IMG/VR virus record: IMGVR_UViG_3300042914_003281
Coordinates: 1 to 41,880 of that record
Length of the DNA: 41,880 nt
Source: a virus
Reading direction: 5' to 3' (one strand)
The notes below the pieces were generated by a model that was not told the origin of the DNA, made no database searches, and worked only from the letters and a program-made list of their open reading frames with translations. Shown piece after piece: positions 13,357 to 20,171 of this stretch. A program made the position numbers and the translations under genes. Each line of letters begins with the position of its first letter. The first letter of the stretch is position 1.

Positions 13357-14271
13357 TCAGCCCGGGTCAACGTCACCGCAGGCGGCCGTCGCGCGGCGCG
13401 GGTCGCCTTTGACGAACACGAGGACGTTTTGGTGGATCTTGACGTTCTTGCGGCTGGCCGTGAATTGCTTGTTCATGCGCGCCGCGCCGCTGCCGATGGG
13501 TGTCTGCAGGATGATCTCGTTGTAGTACCCGGCGCCCGCGTCCATGAACGCCCGGACCGTCTCGCCGACGAAGTTGCGGTAGAGCCCGCGCGGGCAGCGG
13601 ATTTCACCGACGACGATGGCGGCGAAGCGGTCCGGCCGCAGGCGGGCCCATGCCGCGGCGATGATCGCGCGGTAGGCTTCAAGGAAGTCCGGCCATGTCA
13701 TCGCGGACAGGTCCGCGGGGTCATCGCTGTAGCGTTCAAGGTCGCCGTAGGGCGGGCAGGTCAGCATGAAGTCCGCGTCCGGGGCGCCGGCAAGGGCATC
13801 CCGCGCGTCCCCGGTCACCCAGACGGGCGGGGCGGGCACGGGGATAGCCGCGGCCTGCGCGCGGTTCGCATCGACCTGCTCCGCACGCAGGTCGCAACCC
13901 CAGTAGGGCCGGCCCAGCGCGCCGGACACGATGCCGCGGACGGACCCGCCGGCGAAGGGGTCGATGACCTGCCCGGCCGGCGGCGCGTACCAGCGGACCA
14001 GCATCTCGGCGAGGACCGGGTCGAAGATGCTGATGTTGGTTGTGCCCTTGCTGTCGCGCAGGCCGCCAGACAAGCCCAGAACGTCTTGGTCGCGGCCCTC
14101 CTCTGATTTCAACCCGAGCGCCACCCATGCCCGCTTGCGTTCCTGCCAGTCACCGGTCTGCGCGTTCAGCACTGTGAACGGCTGCACCCCGAAGCGGGCG
14201 GCGGTCACCGACGACGCGGGCGGCGGGCGGCGGGCGCCGAACAGGTCCGTGCCGAACAGGGCGGCGCTCAC
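13357..14271 (-). CDS. DNA N6-adenine/N4-cytosine methyltransferase (CPPY type), 304 aa
   Basis: VIDPFAGGSVRGIV (motif I, about residue 102), YWGCDLR, and MLTCPPYGDLERYS (motif IV, about residue 168) show a methyltransferase in which motif I comes before IV. FVKGDPRRA and VGEIRCPRG are typical of phage DNA modification methylases of this kind. The N-terminal region (residues 1-75) probably adds recognition. The GTG start overlaps the previous stop (GTGA). It is one of four methyltransferases in the window and has no linked nuclease. Confidence 0.9.
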   Translation of the reverse strand: MSAALFGTDLFGARRPPPASSVTAARFGVQPFTVLNAQTGDWQERKRAWVALGLKSEEGRDQDVLGLSGGLRDSKGTTNISIFDPVLAEMLVRWYAPPAGQVIDPFAGGSVRGIVSGALGRPYWGCDLRAEQVDANRAQAAAIPVPAPPVWVTGDARDALAGAPDADFMLTCPPYGDLERYSDDPADLSAMTWPDFLEAYRAIIAAAWARLRPDRFAAIVVGEIRCPRGLYRNFVGETVRAFMDAGAGYYNEIILQTPIGSGAARMNKQFTASRKNVKIHQNVLVFVKGDPRRATAACGDVDPG

Positions 14272-14578: not shown

Positions 14579-16504
14579 TCAGCGGGTGCGCTTCTTGATG
14601 CCGCCGGTCGACGGCGCGGGTGGGATCGGCAGGTCGGCGGGCCACGGCTGTAGGGGACCGACGTTGTCGGCTACCCAGCGCACGGCGGTCAGGAGCACCG
14701 CGGCCTGGGGCTTGGTCAGGGCGCGGCGGTCGACCAGGGCGCGCAGCTCGGCGCGGGTCGCGGGGCAGGGGTAGTGCGCGAAGGCCCGGCCGTTGACCGC
14801 GCGGGCGATGGCAGTCAGTTGCTTGTCGGTCGGGGCGGCGCGGCCGCCCTTGCGGAGCTCGCGGATCATCCAGGGCAGGTACTCGGCCTCGGACGCAGGA
14901 AGGCGGCCGGTCTGGCGCAGGCCCTCGATGAGCGCAAGGGCCCACGCGTCGACCTGTTCGAGAAGCACGGCCTTCGGCGGCGGACCGGTCTCTGCCTCGG
15001 CGTCTTCGTCGGTGTCCTTGCGGTCGTCGTCGGGCTCGGTGTCGCCGGCTTCGTCGACGGCCTTGCCCAGCGCGTCGGGATGCTCCAGGCCGTGCGCGGC
15101 GAGGAGTGCCAAGGGGTCGAAGACGACGCCGGCGGTCTTGCCGGGATGGGTGCGGCAGACCCGGCCGACTTCCTGCACAAAGCGGACCCGGGCGCGCACG
15201 TTGCGGCGGCAGGCGAGGCCCATCAACCAAGGGAAGTCGGCGCCCTCGGATAGCATGTTGACGTGGACCAACACGGCGATCTGGCCTGCCCGCAGCGCTT
15301 CGATCCGGACGGTCTGCTCTGCCCAAGTCAGCGCGCTGTGGATGGATGCGGCGGGGTAGCCGTGGCGGGTCAGGCGCTCGGCGAAGGCGTCGGCGTCGGC
15401 GATGCTTCGGGCGTTGGTCAGGGTCGGGCCGGGCAGGCCGTACGCCTTGAACATCGCGATCAGGGCGTCGTCGACGTCGGGGGCCTCGGGGGTCGACGTC
15501 GGCGCGGCATCGTCGGGCAGGTGCGCGGCGCAGGCGGCGGTCCAGTGCAGCGGGGTGATGGGTGTGACTACGCCGTCGCGCAGGCCGTCGCCGAAGGTGT
15601 AGCGGAAGACCACGTCATCCCAGAGGCTCAAGGACTGCTTTTCGTCGGACCGGAAGGGGGTCGCGGTCAAGCCCACCATCCAGCGCGGGGCAAGGTCCAG
15701 CATCGCCGCTTGGTGGATCGGGGCCTCGGACCCGTGGCACTCGTCGACGATGAGCAGGTCGACCGGGCGGCCGGTCTCTTCGACGGCAGCCTTGGCCTGT
15801 GCAAGCGAGGCGAAGCAGGCGACGATCACGCGGGCGGGCTGGCGATAGCCGGCCATCACGAGGCCGGTGTCGGGCACGAAGGCTTGGATCGTCTCGCCGA
15901 GCTGCCGGACCAGCTTCTGCCGCGGCGTGGCGACGACGACCTGAAAGCCTTTGACGGCACACAGGCGGGCAAGCTCAGCGATAAACACGGACTTGCCAGC
16001 CCCCATGAACGCGCAGACGACCGGGCGCAGGGCGCGCGGCAGGCCGTCGTCGGGGGTGTGGGTTCGCCCCAAGGCTGGGCGCACGCGGGCCAGTGCAGCG
16101 GCCTGCCATGCGCGCAGGGGCCGGGCCGGGGCGTCCGGGATCGGGTCGTGCGGGCGCGGGTAGTGCCGGGGCGGCTTGCCGGCGGCCGGGGCGATGCGGG
16201 CGAGGACACCAGCCTCGGCAGGCGGTGGTGGGGCCTCGGGCCCGGGGCGCTTGCGCCGGCCTCGGGGCGCGGCAGCCTTCGCAGCGATGACCTCGGCGGC
16301 CGAAGGTGTGCCCGGGATCGGCGGGTAGCCCCCGGCGATCAGGCGGCGCGACAGGCGGTCAGCGACCCGGACAGCGCTCTCGCGCTCGGGCGCGCTGTGC
16401 GAGGACAGGGCCAAGTCCAGCGCGGCGCGGGCGCGGCGGCGCAAGTCGGCGGCCTCGGCGCGGTCGGCGGGCGGCGTGGCAGCCAGTGCGTCGGGCGCGT
16501 TCAC
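14579..16504 (-). CDS. Superfamily 2 DEAD/H-type helicase, 641 aa
   Basis: Residues 130-440 hold a complete SF2 core: RAWQAAALARV (Q-like), AFMGAGKSV (Walker A, about 165), VDECH (254), GLTATPF (278), then SEGADFPWL and QEVGRVCRTHPGK (motifs V and VI). The first 125 residues are Pro/Ala-rich and probably disordered; the region after 480 is acidic, then helical. It is likely to unwind or remodel DNA at forks or recombination intermediates. The GTG start overlaps the upstream stop (GTGA). It is co-transcribed with the primase and the DUF927-type ATPase. Confidence 0.92.
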   Translation of the reverse strand: MNAPDALAATPPADRAEAADLRRRARAALDLALSSHSAPERESAVRVADRLSRRLIAGGYPPIPGTPSAAEVIAAKAAAPRGRRKRPGPEAPPPPAEAGVLARIAPAAGKPPRHYPRPHDPIPDAPARPLRAWQAAALARVRPALGRTHTPDDGLPRALRPVVCAFMGAGKSVFIAELARLCAVKGFQVVVATPRQKLVRQLGETIQAFVPDTGLVMAGYRQPARVIVACFASLAQAKAAVEETGRPVDLLIVDECHGSEAPIHQAAMLDLAPRWMVGLTATPFRSDEKQSLSLWDDVVFRYTFGDGLRDGVVTPITPLHWTAACAAHLPDDAAPTSTPEAPDVDDALIAMFKAYGLPGPTLTNARSIADADAFAERLTRHGYPAASIHSALTWAEQTVRIEALRAGQIAVLVHVNMLSEGADFPWLMGLACRRNVRARVRFVQEVGRVCRTHPGKTAGVVFDPLALLAAHGLEHPDALGKAVDEAGDTEPDDDRKDTDEDAEAETGPPPKAVLLEQVDAWALALIEGLRQTGRLPASEAEYLPWMIRELRKGGRAAPTDKQLTAIARAVNGRAFAHYPCPATRAELRALVDRRALTKPQAAVLLTAVRWVADNVGPLQPWPADLPIPPAPSTGGIKKRTR

Positions 16505-18714
16505 TCCGCACCGCCGGGGCGCGGGCCGTCACCCATCGCGGCGTCGGATGCGGCGCGCAGGATGCAGACGCAGCGCATGGACTGGCCGTCGACCTTGACC
16601 GGCTTGTCGTAGGTCCGGGCCTCTTCGCGGGGTAAGGCGAGCCATCCCCGGGCGGCCCATTGGGCAAGGACGCCGGGCCCGTCGTAGCGGTCTTCGGCGA
16701 GCCACCTGCGGATGACGGTAACGGCGATGGCGACGTGCTTCCAGCGGTCGCGCGGGTCGTCGGACTTGTCGGGCAACCACTGCCCCAGCCACCCCCCGGA
16801 CGGCGGGCGGGGTTCGCCTTCGCGGTCAAGGACGTGCCGGCCCCAAAAAGCGGTCTGCTGTGCGGCGGCGCGGGTCAGGACGGCGCGCAGGGCGGTCAGC
16901 GGCTTGTCGGCGTCAGCGGCAGCGAGGACCGCGGCGCCGGCGGCGACTGACAGGGCTTCGTCGATGCCGGGGCGCTCGCCGTGCGGCAGGCCGGCGGCTT
17001 CGTGCGCGAAGGTCGCGGCGACGTCCAGTGCGGCGATGTGGGCGGCCAAGCGGCCGGGCAGGGCGCCCAAGGGGGCAAGGACGCCGGCCCATGCGGCGTC
17101 GCGGTCTTCCCAAGCCTCGGTGATCGCGGCCTTGCCCCGGGTCAGCAGCGCGTCGACGAACCGGGCGCCCAAGTGCCCATAGTGCCGGTCGGTCAGGCGG
17201 GCGACGGCGGCGGCTTCGTCGCGGCTGGCGAAGGGCGCGCCCTCGATTGACAGGCAGCGGGCGCGGGCGCCTTCGTCCTGCGACGTGCCCAGAAGCGGGC
17301 TCTCGCCGGTGCTGATGGTGAAGGAGCACCACGTCGCGCGGGTCTGCGCGCCGAAGACGAAGCCGCGGCCCTTGCCCTGCCCGTCGGCCAAGGTGTAGAC
17401 AGTCTGGCCGATGGTCTCGCGCTCTTTGGGTGGAACCTGCCGGGTGTCGTCGAGCATGAGCGGCAGGCAGGACAAGGTCGCAGCGGTGCGCTCGCGGTAA
17501 GTCAGCGTCGATGACCACTTGCCCACGTAGGTTCCGGGTGCGCCCCAGACCGATGCGGCGAGGTTCAGCGCGGTGGTCTTGCCGATGCTGGTGTGCCCCC
17601 ACAGGTCGACCACACAGCCGCGGCCGGTGGTCCACGGCAGGATGACCGAGGCCAGCGCTGCATAGACGGCCAAGCGCGCAATCGGGCGGGAAGAAGCCAA
17701 GGACCACGCTTCTTGCCATGACTCCCACGTCCCGCGGCTATGCACGGACGCGCATAGGGCCTCGTAGCCGCCCGGCGGGGTGAGGTGGATCGGCGGGGCG
17801 GCCGGGGGCGCTGTGGCCTCGGGCACGTCTTCGCCTTCTGGCGCGGCCGGCGCGGGGCCCGGGTGCCAGCCCGCGCCGCGCAGGAAGCCGGCGCCGTGGT
17901 GACCCATGCGCGCGGCAATGCGGCGGGCGGGCAGGCGCGGGCCCCAAGCACTGTCGAGCGCGTCGAGGTAGCGGGCGGCTTCGGTCGCGGTCGGGCTGCA
18001 CACGGGCGCACCGTGGGTCGCCAAGGTCAGCAGCTTGCGCCCATCCATGATGTCGCCGCGCGGCACCCACTGCCGGACCGGGCGCCCGGCGTCGTCGATC
18101 CATGCGACCTCGGCGTGATGCTCGCCGCTGTCGACGTCGACGGCGCGCCCGCAGAGGACCATCGGGCGCGAGGCGACGGGCTTGACCTTGTCTGTCGGCG
18201 CGCCGTCTTCGTCATAGATGACGCAGGATACGCCGTTGTCGCTCATCTCGAACGGCTGGGGCACGGTCGGCTGGCCGACCAAGTCAAGCAGGCGCTTCGC
18301 GGCGCCCGATGCGGTCAAGCGGGGCGGACCCTGCCGGGCCTGCTCAGCGGCCCATGCCTTCGCGGCGGCAGCCTGCGCCTTGGCAGCGTCGGCGGCCACG
18401 CGGCGGCAGGCGGCGTCAAGGGCGCGGTAGTCCGCGGACCCGCCCCGGATGGCCCCACCGGCGGCGAGTAGGTCGCGCAGGTCGTCGTTGCCGGCGACGT
18501 GCAAGAGCTCGGCGACGTCGCAGGCGGCGGACTTCAGCCGGGCCCAGGCGCCCAGGCGCTCGCCGGGGGCGACATGCTCGTTTGCGACGGCTTCGGCGAG
18601 CGGCCCCAAGACCGCGGCAGCGCGATCACGGCGGGCACGGGCGGCGGTGGTTTCGAGGCCCCAGTCGGCGGGCGGGGCGAGGGACAGGGCGGGGGCAGGC
18701 TTCGGCGCGGTCAT
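16501..18714 (-). CDS. DUF927-type replication ATPase/helicase, 737 aa
   Basis: The C-terminal half resembles the DUF927 helicase-like family: LWGHTSIGKTTALNLAASVWG (P-loop at residues 373-380), a tryptophan/STLTYRERTAATL segment and LPLMLDDTRQV (421-423 as the Walker B-like acid). The N-terminal 300 residues are Ala-rich with a possible strand-rich domain around 150-240. Phage and plasmid members sit beside a primase, as here, and are taken to be the replicative helicase. The ATG overlaps the primase stop (ATGA). The family match is from motifs and context, so the exact subfamily is uncertain. Confidence 0.82.
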   Translation of the reverse strand: MTAPKPAPALSLAPPADWGLETTAARARRDRAAAVLGPLAEAVANEHVAPGERLGAWARLKSAACDVAELLHVAGNDDLRDLLAAGGAIRGGSADYRALDAACRRVAADAAKAQAAAAKAWAAEQARQGPPRLTASGAAKRLLDLVGQPTVPQPFEMSDNGVSCVIYDEDGAPTDKVKPVASRPMVLCGRAVDVDSGEHHAEVAWIDDAGRPVRQWVPRGDIMDGRKLLTLATHGAPVCSPTATEAARYLDALDSAWGPRLPARRIAARMGHHGAGFLRGAGWHPGPAPAAPEGEDVPEATAPPAAPPIHLTPPGGYEALCASVHSRGTWESWQEAWSLASSRPIARLAVYAALASVILPWTTGRGCVVDLWGHTSIGKTTALNLAASVWGAPGTYVGKWSSTLTYRERTAATLSCLPLMLDDTRQVPPKERETIGQTVYTLADGQGKGRGFVFGAQTRATWCSFTISTGESPLLGTSQDEGARARCLSIEGAPFASRDEAAAVARLTDRHYGHLGARFVDALLTRGKAAITEAWEDRDAAWAGVLAPLGALPGRLAAHIAALDVAATFAHEAAGLPHGERPGIDEALSVAAGAAVLAAADADKPLTALRAVLTRAAAQQTAFWGRHVLDREGEPRPPSGGWLGQWLPDKSDDPRDRWKHVAIAVTVIRRWLAEDRYDGPGVLAQWAARGWLALPREEARTYDKPVKVDGQSMRCVCILRAASDAAMGDGPRPGGAE

Positions 18715-19664
18715 GCGGGCGATCCGTAGGCGCCGACGTCAAGCCCGGCGGCGGTGAGGAGGTCGGCGACGGGCCCGTGCCAGCCGCAGGACTTGACGTG
18801 GTTGCAGGACGCGGACCATGCCTTGCGCGGGTCGATGACGAACCATGCATCGGCGCGCCCGCAGCCGGGGCAGGTCAGCCCGAAGGCGACGTCGGACCCG
18901 TCGCGCGGGGCGACCTTGGCGCGCAGGTCAGCGGCGGCGGCGCGGCGCGCGGCAGGGTCGGTGCGCAGGGCGCGGTGGCCTGCCCGGGTCCGGCGCTCAG
19001 CGGGGTCGTCGGCCCCGCGCTCCCAGCGCACGGCAGCGGCGGCGCGGGCGGCGGACTTCGCGCGCGCGTGCTCAGCGGCGAGGCGGGCCAACTCGGCGTC
19101 GTACTCGGCCCGATCAACGTACTCGGCGACGTCGAGAAGATCGCCGGGCGCGTAGTCAGCGACCTCGACAGGGCCCTGCACAGGCAGCAGGTAGAGCCGG
19201 GAGGGGTCGACGCACTTCGGGTCGGCGGCGGCGTGCGCTTGCCCGATGTCCTGCAGAATCAGGCGCATCACCGAGGACCAGATGCCGCCGGAGACCGGGG
19301 CGGCCAAGGGCAAGACGAGGCGGCACTTCGGGGCGCCGGGCAGCGCGGACCACGTCGTGTATGCGCAGCGCTCGCGCTCGGGAAACAGGGCCATCACGTC
19401 GGGCACGTCGGCCCCGTCGTCATAGTCGAGCACAAGGGCATGGACCGAGACGATGCCGGCGGCGCGGCGGCGCAGGTCGGGCCCGAGGACGTGCGGGGCC
19501 CAGCACGGCGCGGCGAGCTTGTCAGCGGGGCGTGGGCGGCCGTGGCGCGTCAGGGCGCGCCGGACTTGCCCCCACGTCGTCGGGTGGGGCGCGCCTGTCG
19601 CTGAGGACCGGGCGCAGGTGTAGGTAGCCGTCGGGCACGGATGCCCGTCGTGGGTGCTCTGCAT
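18711..19664 (-). CDS. Archaeo-eukaryotic-type primase (PrimPol-like) with zinc ribbon, 317 aa
   Basis: ALVLDYDDGADVPD (residues 77-90) gives the DxD metal site. YTTWSALPGAPKCRLVLPL (102-120) matches the strand that follows the TTxSH motif, and DPSRLYLLPV (153-162) provides the third acidic motif. The motif II histidine, normally in TTxSH, appears to be Ala here. The tail has CPGCGRADAWFV and SCNHVKSCGW, a zinc ribbon. It should make primers for phage replication with the neighbouring DUF927 ATPase. The ATG at 19664 has only a weak ribosome site (CAGG), which lies inside the stem of the upstream leader. Longer frames lack support. Confidence 0.8.
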   Translation of the reverse strand: MQSTHDGHPCPTATYTCARSSATGAPHPTTWGQVRRALTRHGRPRPADKLAAPCWAPHVLGPDLRRRAAGIVSVHALVLDYDDGADVPDVMALFPERERCAYTTWSALPGAPKCRLVLPLAAPVSGGIWSSVMRLILQDIGQAHAAADPKCVDPSRLYLLPVQGPVEVADYAPGDLLDVAEYVDRAEYDAELARLAAEHARAKSAARAAAAVRWERGADDPAERRTRAGHRALRTDPAARRAAAADLRAKVAPRDGSDVAFGLTCPGCGRADAWFVIDPRKAWSASCNHVKSCGWHGPVADLLTAAGLDVGAYGSPA

Positions 19665-19667
19665 TGG

Positions 19668-19767
19668 TGACCTGGGGCACGGGGTGTCGCCGCTGTAGCG
19701 TCCGGGGCCCGGTGGCCCTGCACCGCCGGGTAGCAAGTCCGGCGGTGCAGGCGGGGTGCCCAGGTCA
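19668..19767 (-). promoter_or_regulatory. Nested structured leader of the primase gene
   Basis: An inner perfect 13-bp hairpin (CCTGCACCGCCGG / CCGGCGGTGCAGG, 19717-19751, 9-base loop) is enclosed by an outer 12-bp stem (TGACCTGGGCAC against 19668-19680, with one bulged G). The outer stem ends three bases from the start codon and contains the only plausible ribosome site. The predicted transcript begins near 19773, so the structure fills almost the whole leader. A role in translational control of primase, by protein or ligand binding, is inference. Confidence 0.55.
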
Positions 19768-19779
19768 GCAGGCGCCTTG

Positions 19780-19809
19780 GTTGTAGCGCAGGGGCGGCGC
19801 GGCTGTCAA
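19780..19809 (-). promoter_or_regulatory. Leftward promoter of the primase operon
   Basis: Minus strand: TTGACA (19804-19809, consensus), 18-base spacer, TACAAC (19780-19785). It differs from the other leftward promoters in lacking the CTA lead. It drives primase, DUF927-type ATPase and SF2 helicase. Confidence 0.65.
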
Positions 19810-20031
19810 GCCCGAAGAGTGCAGGAAGTGCGGTCGCGGTCGGGTCGCGGCCCTTGGTGTCCGGGTCGCGCGTTGTGGATGGCGATGCTGGCGCTGTTCT
19901 CGCCCTCGTGCTGCGGGCCGGTCGCAGGCCGTGTACCCGTCTGGTACCCGGCGAGAATGGCGCTCAGTAGGACGTTATCAGCAAGTATAAGCTATAAGGT
20001 TACCAGATCTGAGATACATCGTTTTTTAGGG

Positions 20032-20097
20032 GGAGCCTCCGCAGAAGAGAAGAAGACCCTCCCCTCACACGGGAGATCTTCTCTTCTTCTGCGCTCC
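20032..20097. repeat. Long purine/pyrimidine hairpin in the putative origin
   Basis: The left arm from 20041 (GCAGAAGAGAAGAAGA) pairs with the right arm ending at 20092 (TCTTCTCTTCTTCTGC) with two mismatches. An inner CTCCC/GGGAG stem closes a 7-base loop, and an outer GGAGC/GCTCC pair extends it. One arm is all purine on each strand except at its ends. Confidence 0.6.
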
Positions 20098-20171
20098 TCT
20101 CAGGGCAGAGAGTATGGGTCGCCGGACTGGTAACCGGGAGCCATTTCGCTCGTAATGTTCGCGGCGAAACA

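Follow-up and report, generated by a model that had tools for sequence, protein, structure and literature searches.

A conserved structured leader that is predicted to pair the Shine-Dalgarno-like sequence of a phage primase gene and may restrain its translation

Described phage leaders and the present locus

Structured phage leaders that hide the ribosome site of the gene behind them are a kind of element already known. In phage T4, the gene 43 operator is described as combining a hairpin-loop of 18 bases, located about 40 bases ahead of the start codon, with sequence overlapping the ribosome site (PMC3014915). The same paper lists T4 e, soc, 49 and I-TevI, and Aeh1 mobE, as genes whose Shine-Dalgarno (SD) sequence and/or start codon is hidden in an RNA helix, and describes late promoters of T4 gene e from which the message lacks the structure's 5′ strand (PMC3014915). 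The leader of T4 gene 32 is reported to mediate autogenous control and to have kept this function while its sequence diverged (PMC535899).

The leader described here precedes a primase-like gene in a phage genome of 41,880 bases with 71.5% GC, the whole of an IMG/VR record, hereafter the window. T4/RB69 gene 43 and the present locus share a phage replication gene, an upstream RNA hairpin, an operator reaching the ribosome site and an early transcript, whereas the SD itself lies here in a long-range stem closing the whole leader. The UAAC-type loop of the T4 gp43 operator was not found in the leader, the hairpin loops of which, carried on 13-14 bp, are ACTTGCTAC or (A/G)(C/T)TGATCCC. T4 gene 32 (SSB) likewise has a leader structure before a replication gene, but it is characterised by a pseudoknot and a less structured UUAAA-rich SD region, whereas the present leader is GC-rich and its SD is paired (PMC535899). 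Unlike the T4 e group, this locus displays, by eye, no promoter of the late gene e type and concerns a replication gene heading an operon. No primase leader of such kind was found in the searched literature, a weak negative given the limited coverage of subscription papers.

Genomic setting and predicted transcript start

The replication genes run leftward from 19664 and encode a primase-like protein, a DUF927 protein, a helicase and then a methylase-like protein and SSB; the packaging genes (terminase small and large subunits, portal and head) run rightward from 20531. The two groups are separated by a gap of 866 bases, on the left side of which lies the leader. The first gene of the replication operon (18711-19664, minus strand) encodes the 317-aa primase-like protein, a label that derives from PHROG primase/helicase matches covering part of the protein (E 2.1e-10). 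It had no Pfam match, a PDB sequence search returned no useful match, and its AlphaFold model is poor (mean pLDDT 56.5); its ATG start is kept among relatives. The start of the DUF927 primase/helicase gene (16501-18714, minus strand; Pfam DUF927, E 1.3e-35; phrog_8841, E 2.7e-81) overlaps the primase stop, and the helicase gene of the same operon lies at 14579-16504 (minus strand; phrog_16, E 9e-45; ResIII). The replication-operon protein encoded at 13357-14271, also on the minus strand, has a short N6_N4 DNA methylase match.

Upstream of the leader, a −35-like TTGACA (19804-19809, minus strand), of which TTGAC is present upstream in all eight sequences compared, is separated by a spacer of 18 nt (19809-19780 for the pair) from a −10-like TACAAC (19780-19785, minus strand). 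The latter is a weak match to the consensus hexamer, and a consensus promoter scan lists no promoter at the leader, the second hexamer being too weak; its TAC nevertheless recurs in all relatives. Six nt after TACAAC begins GCCTGCTGACCTGGGC..., and from the first G of the leader to the primase ATG (19664) there are 109 nt, with the predicted transcript start at 19773. Among the relatives TAC stands without exception 12 nt before the first base of the leader, so the predicted transcript starts exactly at the 5′ flank of the stem. In one relative, the metagenome-assembled contig RFPL01000036.1 (L058), TTGAC and TAC are separated at about 1100-1130 by 10 nt, against 17-18 nt in the others; TTGAC is thus 7-8 nt nearer TAC, and the −35 assignment is not universal.

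Further upstream, a purine-rich hairpin with terminator-like tails on both strands occupies 20040-20093 and recurs in varied form at a similar place in relatives; it probably insulates the two divergent operons. A further structure, at about 19890-19965, folds in the window and was rejected, some of its pairs being broken in relatives as judged by eye.

Structure of the leader

From the sequence of the window alone, the initial annotation had proposed a two-layer leader between the predicted transcript start and the start codon, in which a 13-bp perfect hairpin sits inside a 12-bp closing stem that hides the only AGG near the start. This layout was borne out, and its coordinates, 19664-19809, are correct and include the promoter. 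The whole structured leader, from the predicted +1 to the A of the ATG (19664-19773, minus strand, as are all elements below), scores 110.9 bits against the covariance model described below, the window being among the model's own sequences. It opens with a 27-nt 5′ block, GCCTGCTGACCTGGGCRCCCCGCCTGC (19747-19773), which has one variable base across seven distinct sequences. The outer stem, recovered by folding, in the consensus structure and in the pair count, joins a 5′ arm at 19756-19767 to a 3′ arm at 19668-19680 by 12 bp, arranged as runs of 9 and 3 bp and with a single C bulged out. The 3′ arm contains the SD-like AGG (19671-19673), the first base of which lies 9 nt before the ATG and the computed unpaired probability of which is 0.00; no other AGG occurs in the 25 nt preceding the ATG. 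The SD is short (AGG/AGGU), and weak SDs also precede other genes of the window. The inner hairpin (19717-19751), identified by inverted repeat search and by the pair count, has 13 perfect pairs and a 9-nt loop. In the RNAalifold consensus, CGGG at 19708-19711 pairs across a 5-nt bulge with CCCG at 19752-19755, a helix that is absent from the window's own minimum-energy fold.

Of all perfect hairpins in the window with a loop of 3-12, the inner hairpin is the longest; hairpins of at least 13 bp arose in one of 15 dinucleotide shuffles of the whole window, and alone it is only moderately unusual. The folding energy gave z −2.35 for the exact interval of the initial annotation, a value matched by 2 of 200 shuffles. 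None of 200 shuffles equalled the 109-nt leader by itself (z −3.33) or the leader extended by 24 nt of gene sequence (z −4.03), and every leader of the family surpasses at least 199 of its 200 shuffles. In the computed ensembles of all nine leaders the AGG pairs with the 5′ arm at a probability of 1.00, and the openness of the AUG ranges from 0.11 to 0.83.

The fold had been said to match no riboswitch or tRNA, and this stood: ARAGORN reported 0 tRNA/tmRNA genes, and Rfam 15 gave 0 matches in the window at gathering score, the best weak match to the leader reaching 17.5 bits against the 54.1 required. A scan for intrinsic attenuators (hairpin plus T run) found none in the leader, the sole one lying at 20058-20076. 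Two coding readings were rejected. A coding leader is contradicted by small indels between relatives and by open-frame changes that mostly alter the amino acid, and in each of the two other close haplotypes a stop interrupts the ORF of a putative opposite-strand gene at 19756-20133.

Conservation and covariation

Three close contigs, two of them identical over the compared stretch, carry primases 97-99% identical to that of the window, with 1, 1 and 0 leader differences in 107 bases; the fourfold primase sites differing in close relatives number 14/213 and 28/209. Between the window and c9081, 0 of 107 leader bases differ, against 28 of 209 fourfold primase sites, and such near-zero change in the leader beside changed fourfold sites argues for strong selection. 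No paired base varies in these close relatives, so covariation could not be judged there. More distant relatives came from a terminase-alignment scan, which gave 21 loci including L034 (primase 70% identical, leader DNA about 75% alike), and from a primase-alignment scan, which added L037, L038 and L039 (L040 being the same contig as L034); a scan of viral contigs with a primase segment returned the same seven contigs again. The primases of the distant relatives are about 69% identical to that of the window, and their leaders share a plan of TTGAC, GCTAC, the invariant 5′ block, a hairpin of 13-14 bp that differs in its letters, and CGGG, followed by a variable stretch, CCCAGGTC(A/G)C and then the ATG. 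Leader length is 108-110 nt in all.

Covariation, which the initial annotation had named as the check on the structure, was found. The pair count covered eight leaders, seven of them distinct, from at most four well-separated lineages, and left out c42350 (leader identical to that of c42475) and duplicate loci of the same contigs. RNAalifold returned, unprompted, the outer stem, the 4-bp CCCG/CGGG helix and the inner hairpin, together with a 2-bp helix that was omitted from the model. Over the seven distinct sequences 196 of 196 pair cells were paired, and seven of the 28 pairs were changed on both sides (six inner, one outer), with 15 such cells and a covariation score of 0.279. Shuffles, a control that ignores the relatedness of the sequences, averaged 3.4 two-sided pairs and reached at least seven in 1 of 500, the 15 two-sided cells and the covariation score in 0 of 500 each, and further pair types in 20 of 500; slid controls, in which the partner was moved by 1-3 columns, were 30-52% paired with 0-2 two-sided pairs. 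At least three primase lineages, as judged from the tree and identities, contribute to the two-sided changes.

The changes are unevenly distributed. In the inner hairpin, six of 13 pairs are two-sided, one is a wobble pair and none is broken. In the outer stem, one of 11 pairs is two-sided (17-96, A-U to G-C in two related sequences), one is a wobble pair (7-107, U-A to U-G) and nine are invariant. The wobbles, confined to these two pairs, are U-G in the message sense and never A-C. The 4-bp CGGG/CCCG pairs never vary and therefore give no covariation for or against that helix. By sequence comparison, the inner hairpin is a well-established conserved pairing; the outer stem is supported less firmly, by geometry, energy, one compensated pair and one wobble pair. 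Judged from its sequences, the leader is an RNA family with real covariation and without an Rfam 15 match.

Distribution of the leader

The covariance model, built from the seven viral leaders, was run over 52 sources. RFPL01000036.1, titled a Sphingomonadaceae MAG and lying outside the model, scored 110.8 bits, and apart from it none of the 52 sources outside the training contigs exceeded 15 bits. This contig was reached through a search with the 5′ block pattern over 84,980 genomes, which gave 21 matches, 20 of which were without a full model match and were set aside; having been found by the 5′ pattern, it offers only its hairpin and 3′ half as independent. Only 2 differences separate its leader from that of L039, and a primase 69% identical to that of the window lies directly behind it, then DUF927 and helicase. 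The Sphingomonadaceae title is a weak hint of the host, as the contig may be misbinned. The model and a primase profile, applied to 298 genomes of that MAG's family, matched in that MAG only, and there is thus no sign of prophages in that family; a search of the genome contigs with the DUF927 protein found none. Among the viral contigs, four of seven exact matches to a hairpin 17-mer (L009, L011, L013 and L014) and two of nine matches to the 5′ block pattern (L048 and L049) were discarded as chance.

Altogether, the leader is present in nine of nine records with a primase of this clade (the window, seven IMG/VR contigs and one MAG contig), in each case, with whole records searched, as one strong copy on the message strand at the primase start. 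It is absent from five related phage records, found through terminase kinship, with primases 31-39% identical; the best score there, 14.3 bits, lies elsewhere. In three such loci (L042, L044 and L045) the primase gene is, by eye, internal to the operon and closely follows the end of a preceding gene, which suggests that the leader accompanies a primase standing first in its operon. In L021, L022, L026 and L030 the terminase large subunit is 90-97% identical to that of the window and the primase 31-39%; by these identities, the phages concerned swap packaging and replication modules. In contig 3300009081_000018 (L006), the first 50 or so terminase residues differ and the rest are nearly identical, and the window's terminase small subunit was not found in that contig; on this alignment, a module junction lies inside the terminase gene.

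Proposed mechanism and rival explanations

The leader probably does act as a switch or brake on primase synthesis. The reading we favour, with a probability of about one half, is that an SD-sequestering RNA leader restrains primase synthesis and that a trans-acting phage replication protein probably sets its closure. The leftward replication transcript would begin with 109 nt folded into the outer stem, the short invariant helix and the 13-14-bp hairpin, the last strand of the folded unit covering the SD-like AGG of the primase gene. With the AGG closed and the transcript starting at the 5′ flank of the stem, the full-length message would be poorly translated unless opened. The leader may in this way keep primase synthesis low, and that of the DUF927 protein too through the overlapping starts. 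The degree of closure would be set by a trans-acting factor, most likely a phage replication protein that in excess locks the leader, by analogy with T4 gp32/gp43. The invariance of the base strands against the freely changing middle of the hairpin suggests a sequence-specific partner, and the same analogy points to the replication proteins of the operon as the likeliest candidates. A narrower proposal is that the binder is primase or the DUF927 protein itself, which would recognise the invariant strands of its own leader and thereby close its own ribosome site, so that the supply of primase would follow its use at the fork. This is tentative and rather unlikely.

The alternative that survives best is an RNA leader without a dedicated binder, acting as a fixed brake, a kinetic timer or a 5′-end stabiliser and resulting in low, delayed primase translation or protection from decay. 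It fits the closed SD of nine of nine leaders, and for T4 e, soc, 49 and I-TevI and Aeh1 mobE translation is described as lowered by hairpins with no trans factor involved (PMC3014915). For such a device, however, stability would be enough, and there would be no need for a 27-nt 5′ block that varies at one base among seven sequences while the adjoining hairpin changes freely; nor was a conserved internal promoter like that of T4 gene e seen by eye in the leader. It is regarded as possible, though unlikely.

A serious rival, but one to which we attach a distinctly small likelihood, is that the element acts as DNA, either as an exposed-strand hairpin for primase initiation or as an operator, near an origin just upstream. 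About 250 nt upstream of the leader, an AT-rich stretch (19969-20028) has 35% GC, and all eight leader-bearing sequences have a 60-base stretch of 27-35% GC there, which is the minimum over the 450 nt searched; the short repeats nearby (CATTCTC, GTTACAA/TTGTAAC or CGCGACC) differ between lineages. This stretch is a candidate replication origin or operator array, and as a possible origin it keeps the DNA-level reading alive, as do the divergent replication/packaging boundary located here and the restriction of the element to the primase clade of the window. GC skew turns at about 20 kb, but gene direction turns there too, so the skew is uninformative on an origin. Against action as DNA stand the constant length from predicted +1 to SD, the single strong copy per record on the message strand, the wobbles that fit the message strand (two pairs only), and the 3′ arm, the fall of which on the SD would be a coincidence. 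Primase recognition hairpins are known from RSF1010, where ssiA and ssiB are paired sites, one per strand, in the origin. The present element resembles them as a hairpin beside a primase gene and differs in occurring as a single strong copy in each record, located at the predicted mRNA start and ending on the SD; the single copy speaks mildly against an RSF1010-type ssi site.

A riboswitch through which a small molecule, for example a nucleotide, gates primase would agree with the layered fold and the invariant blocks over the SD, but Rfam offers no match at gathering level and its weak matches to the leader include no riboswitch, no complex junction is conserved besides the stacked helices, and the element was found in a single gene context only, which makes this reading very improbable. 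A chance hairpin in GC-rich DNA is hardly credible, for although one shuffled window held a hairpin as long, the compensatory changes and the model match outside the training set speak against it.

Implications

The leader family occupies a clear regulatory position, ahead of the first gene of a phage replication operon. Should a replication protein work the leader, primase/helicase would join the autogenous circuits of the T4 type, in unrelated phages, and the circuit would be one for primase rather than for SSB or polymerase. In that case, rapid, compensated change in the inner stem beside frozen outer strands would also make RNA-protein co-evolution testable, with seven natural versions of the leader at hand.
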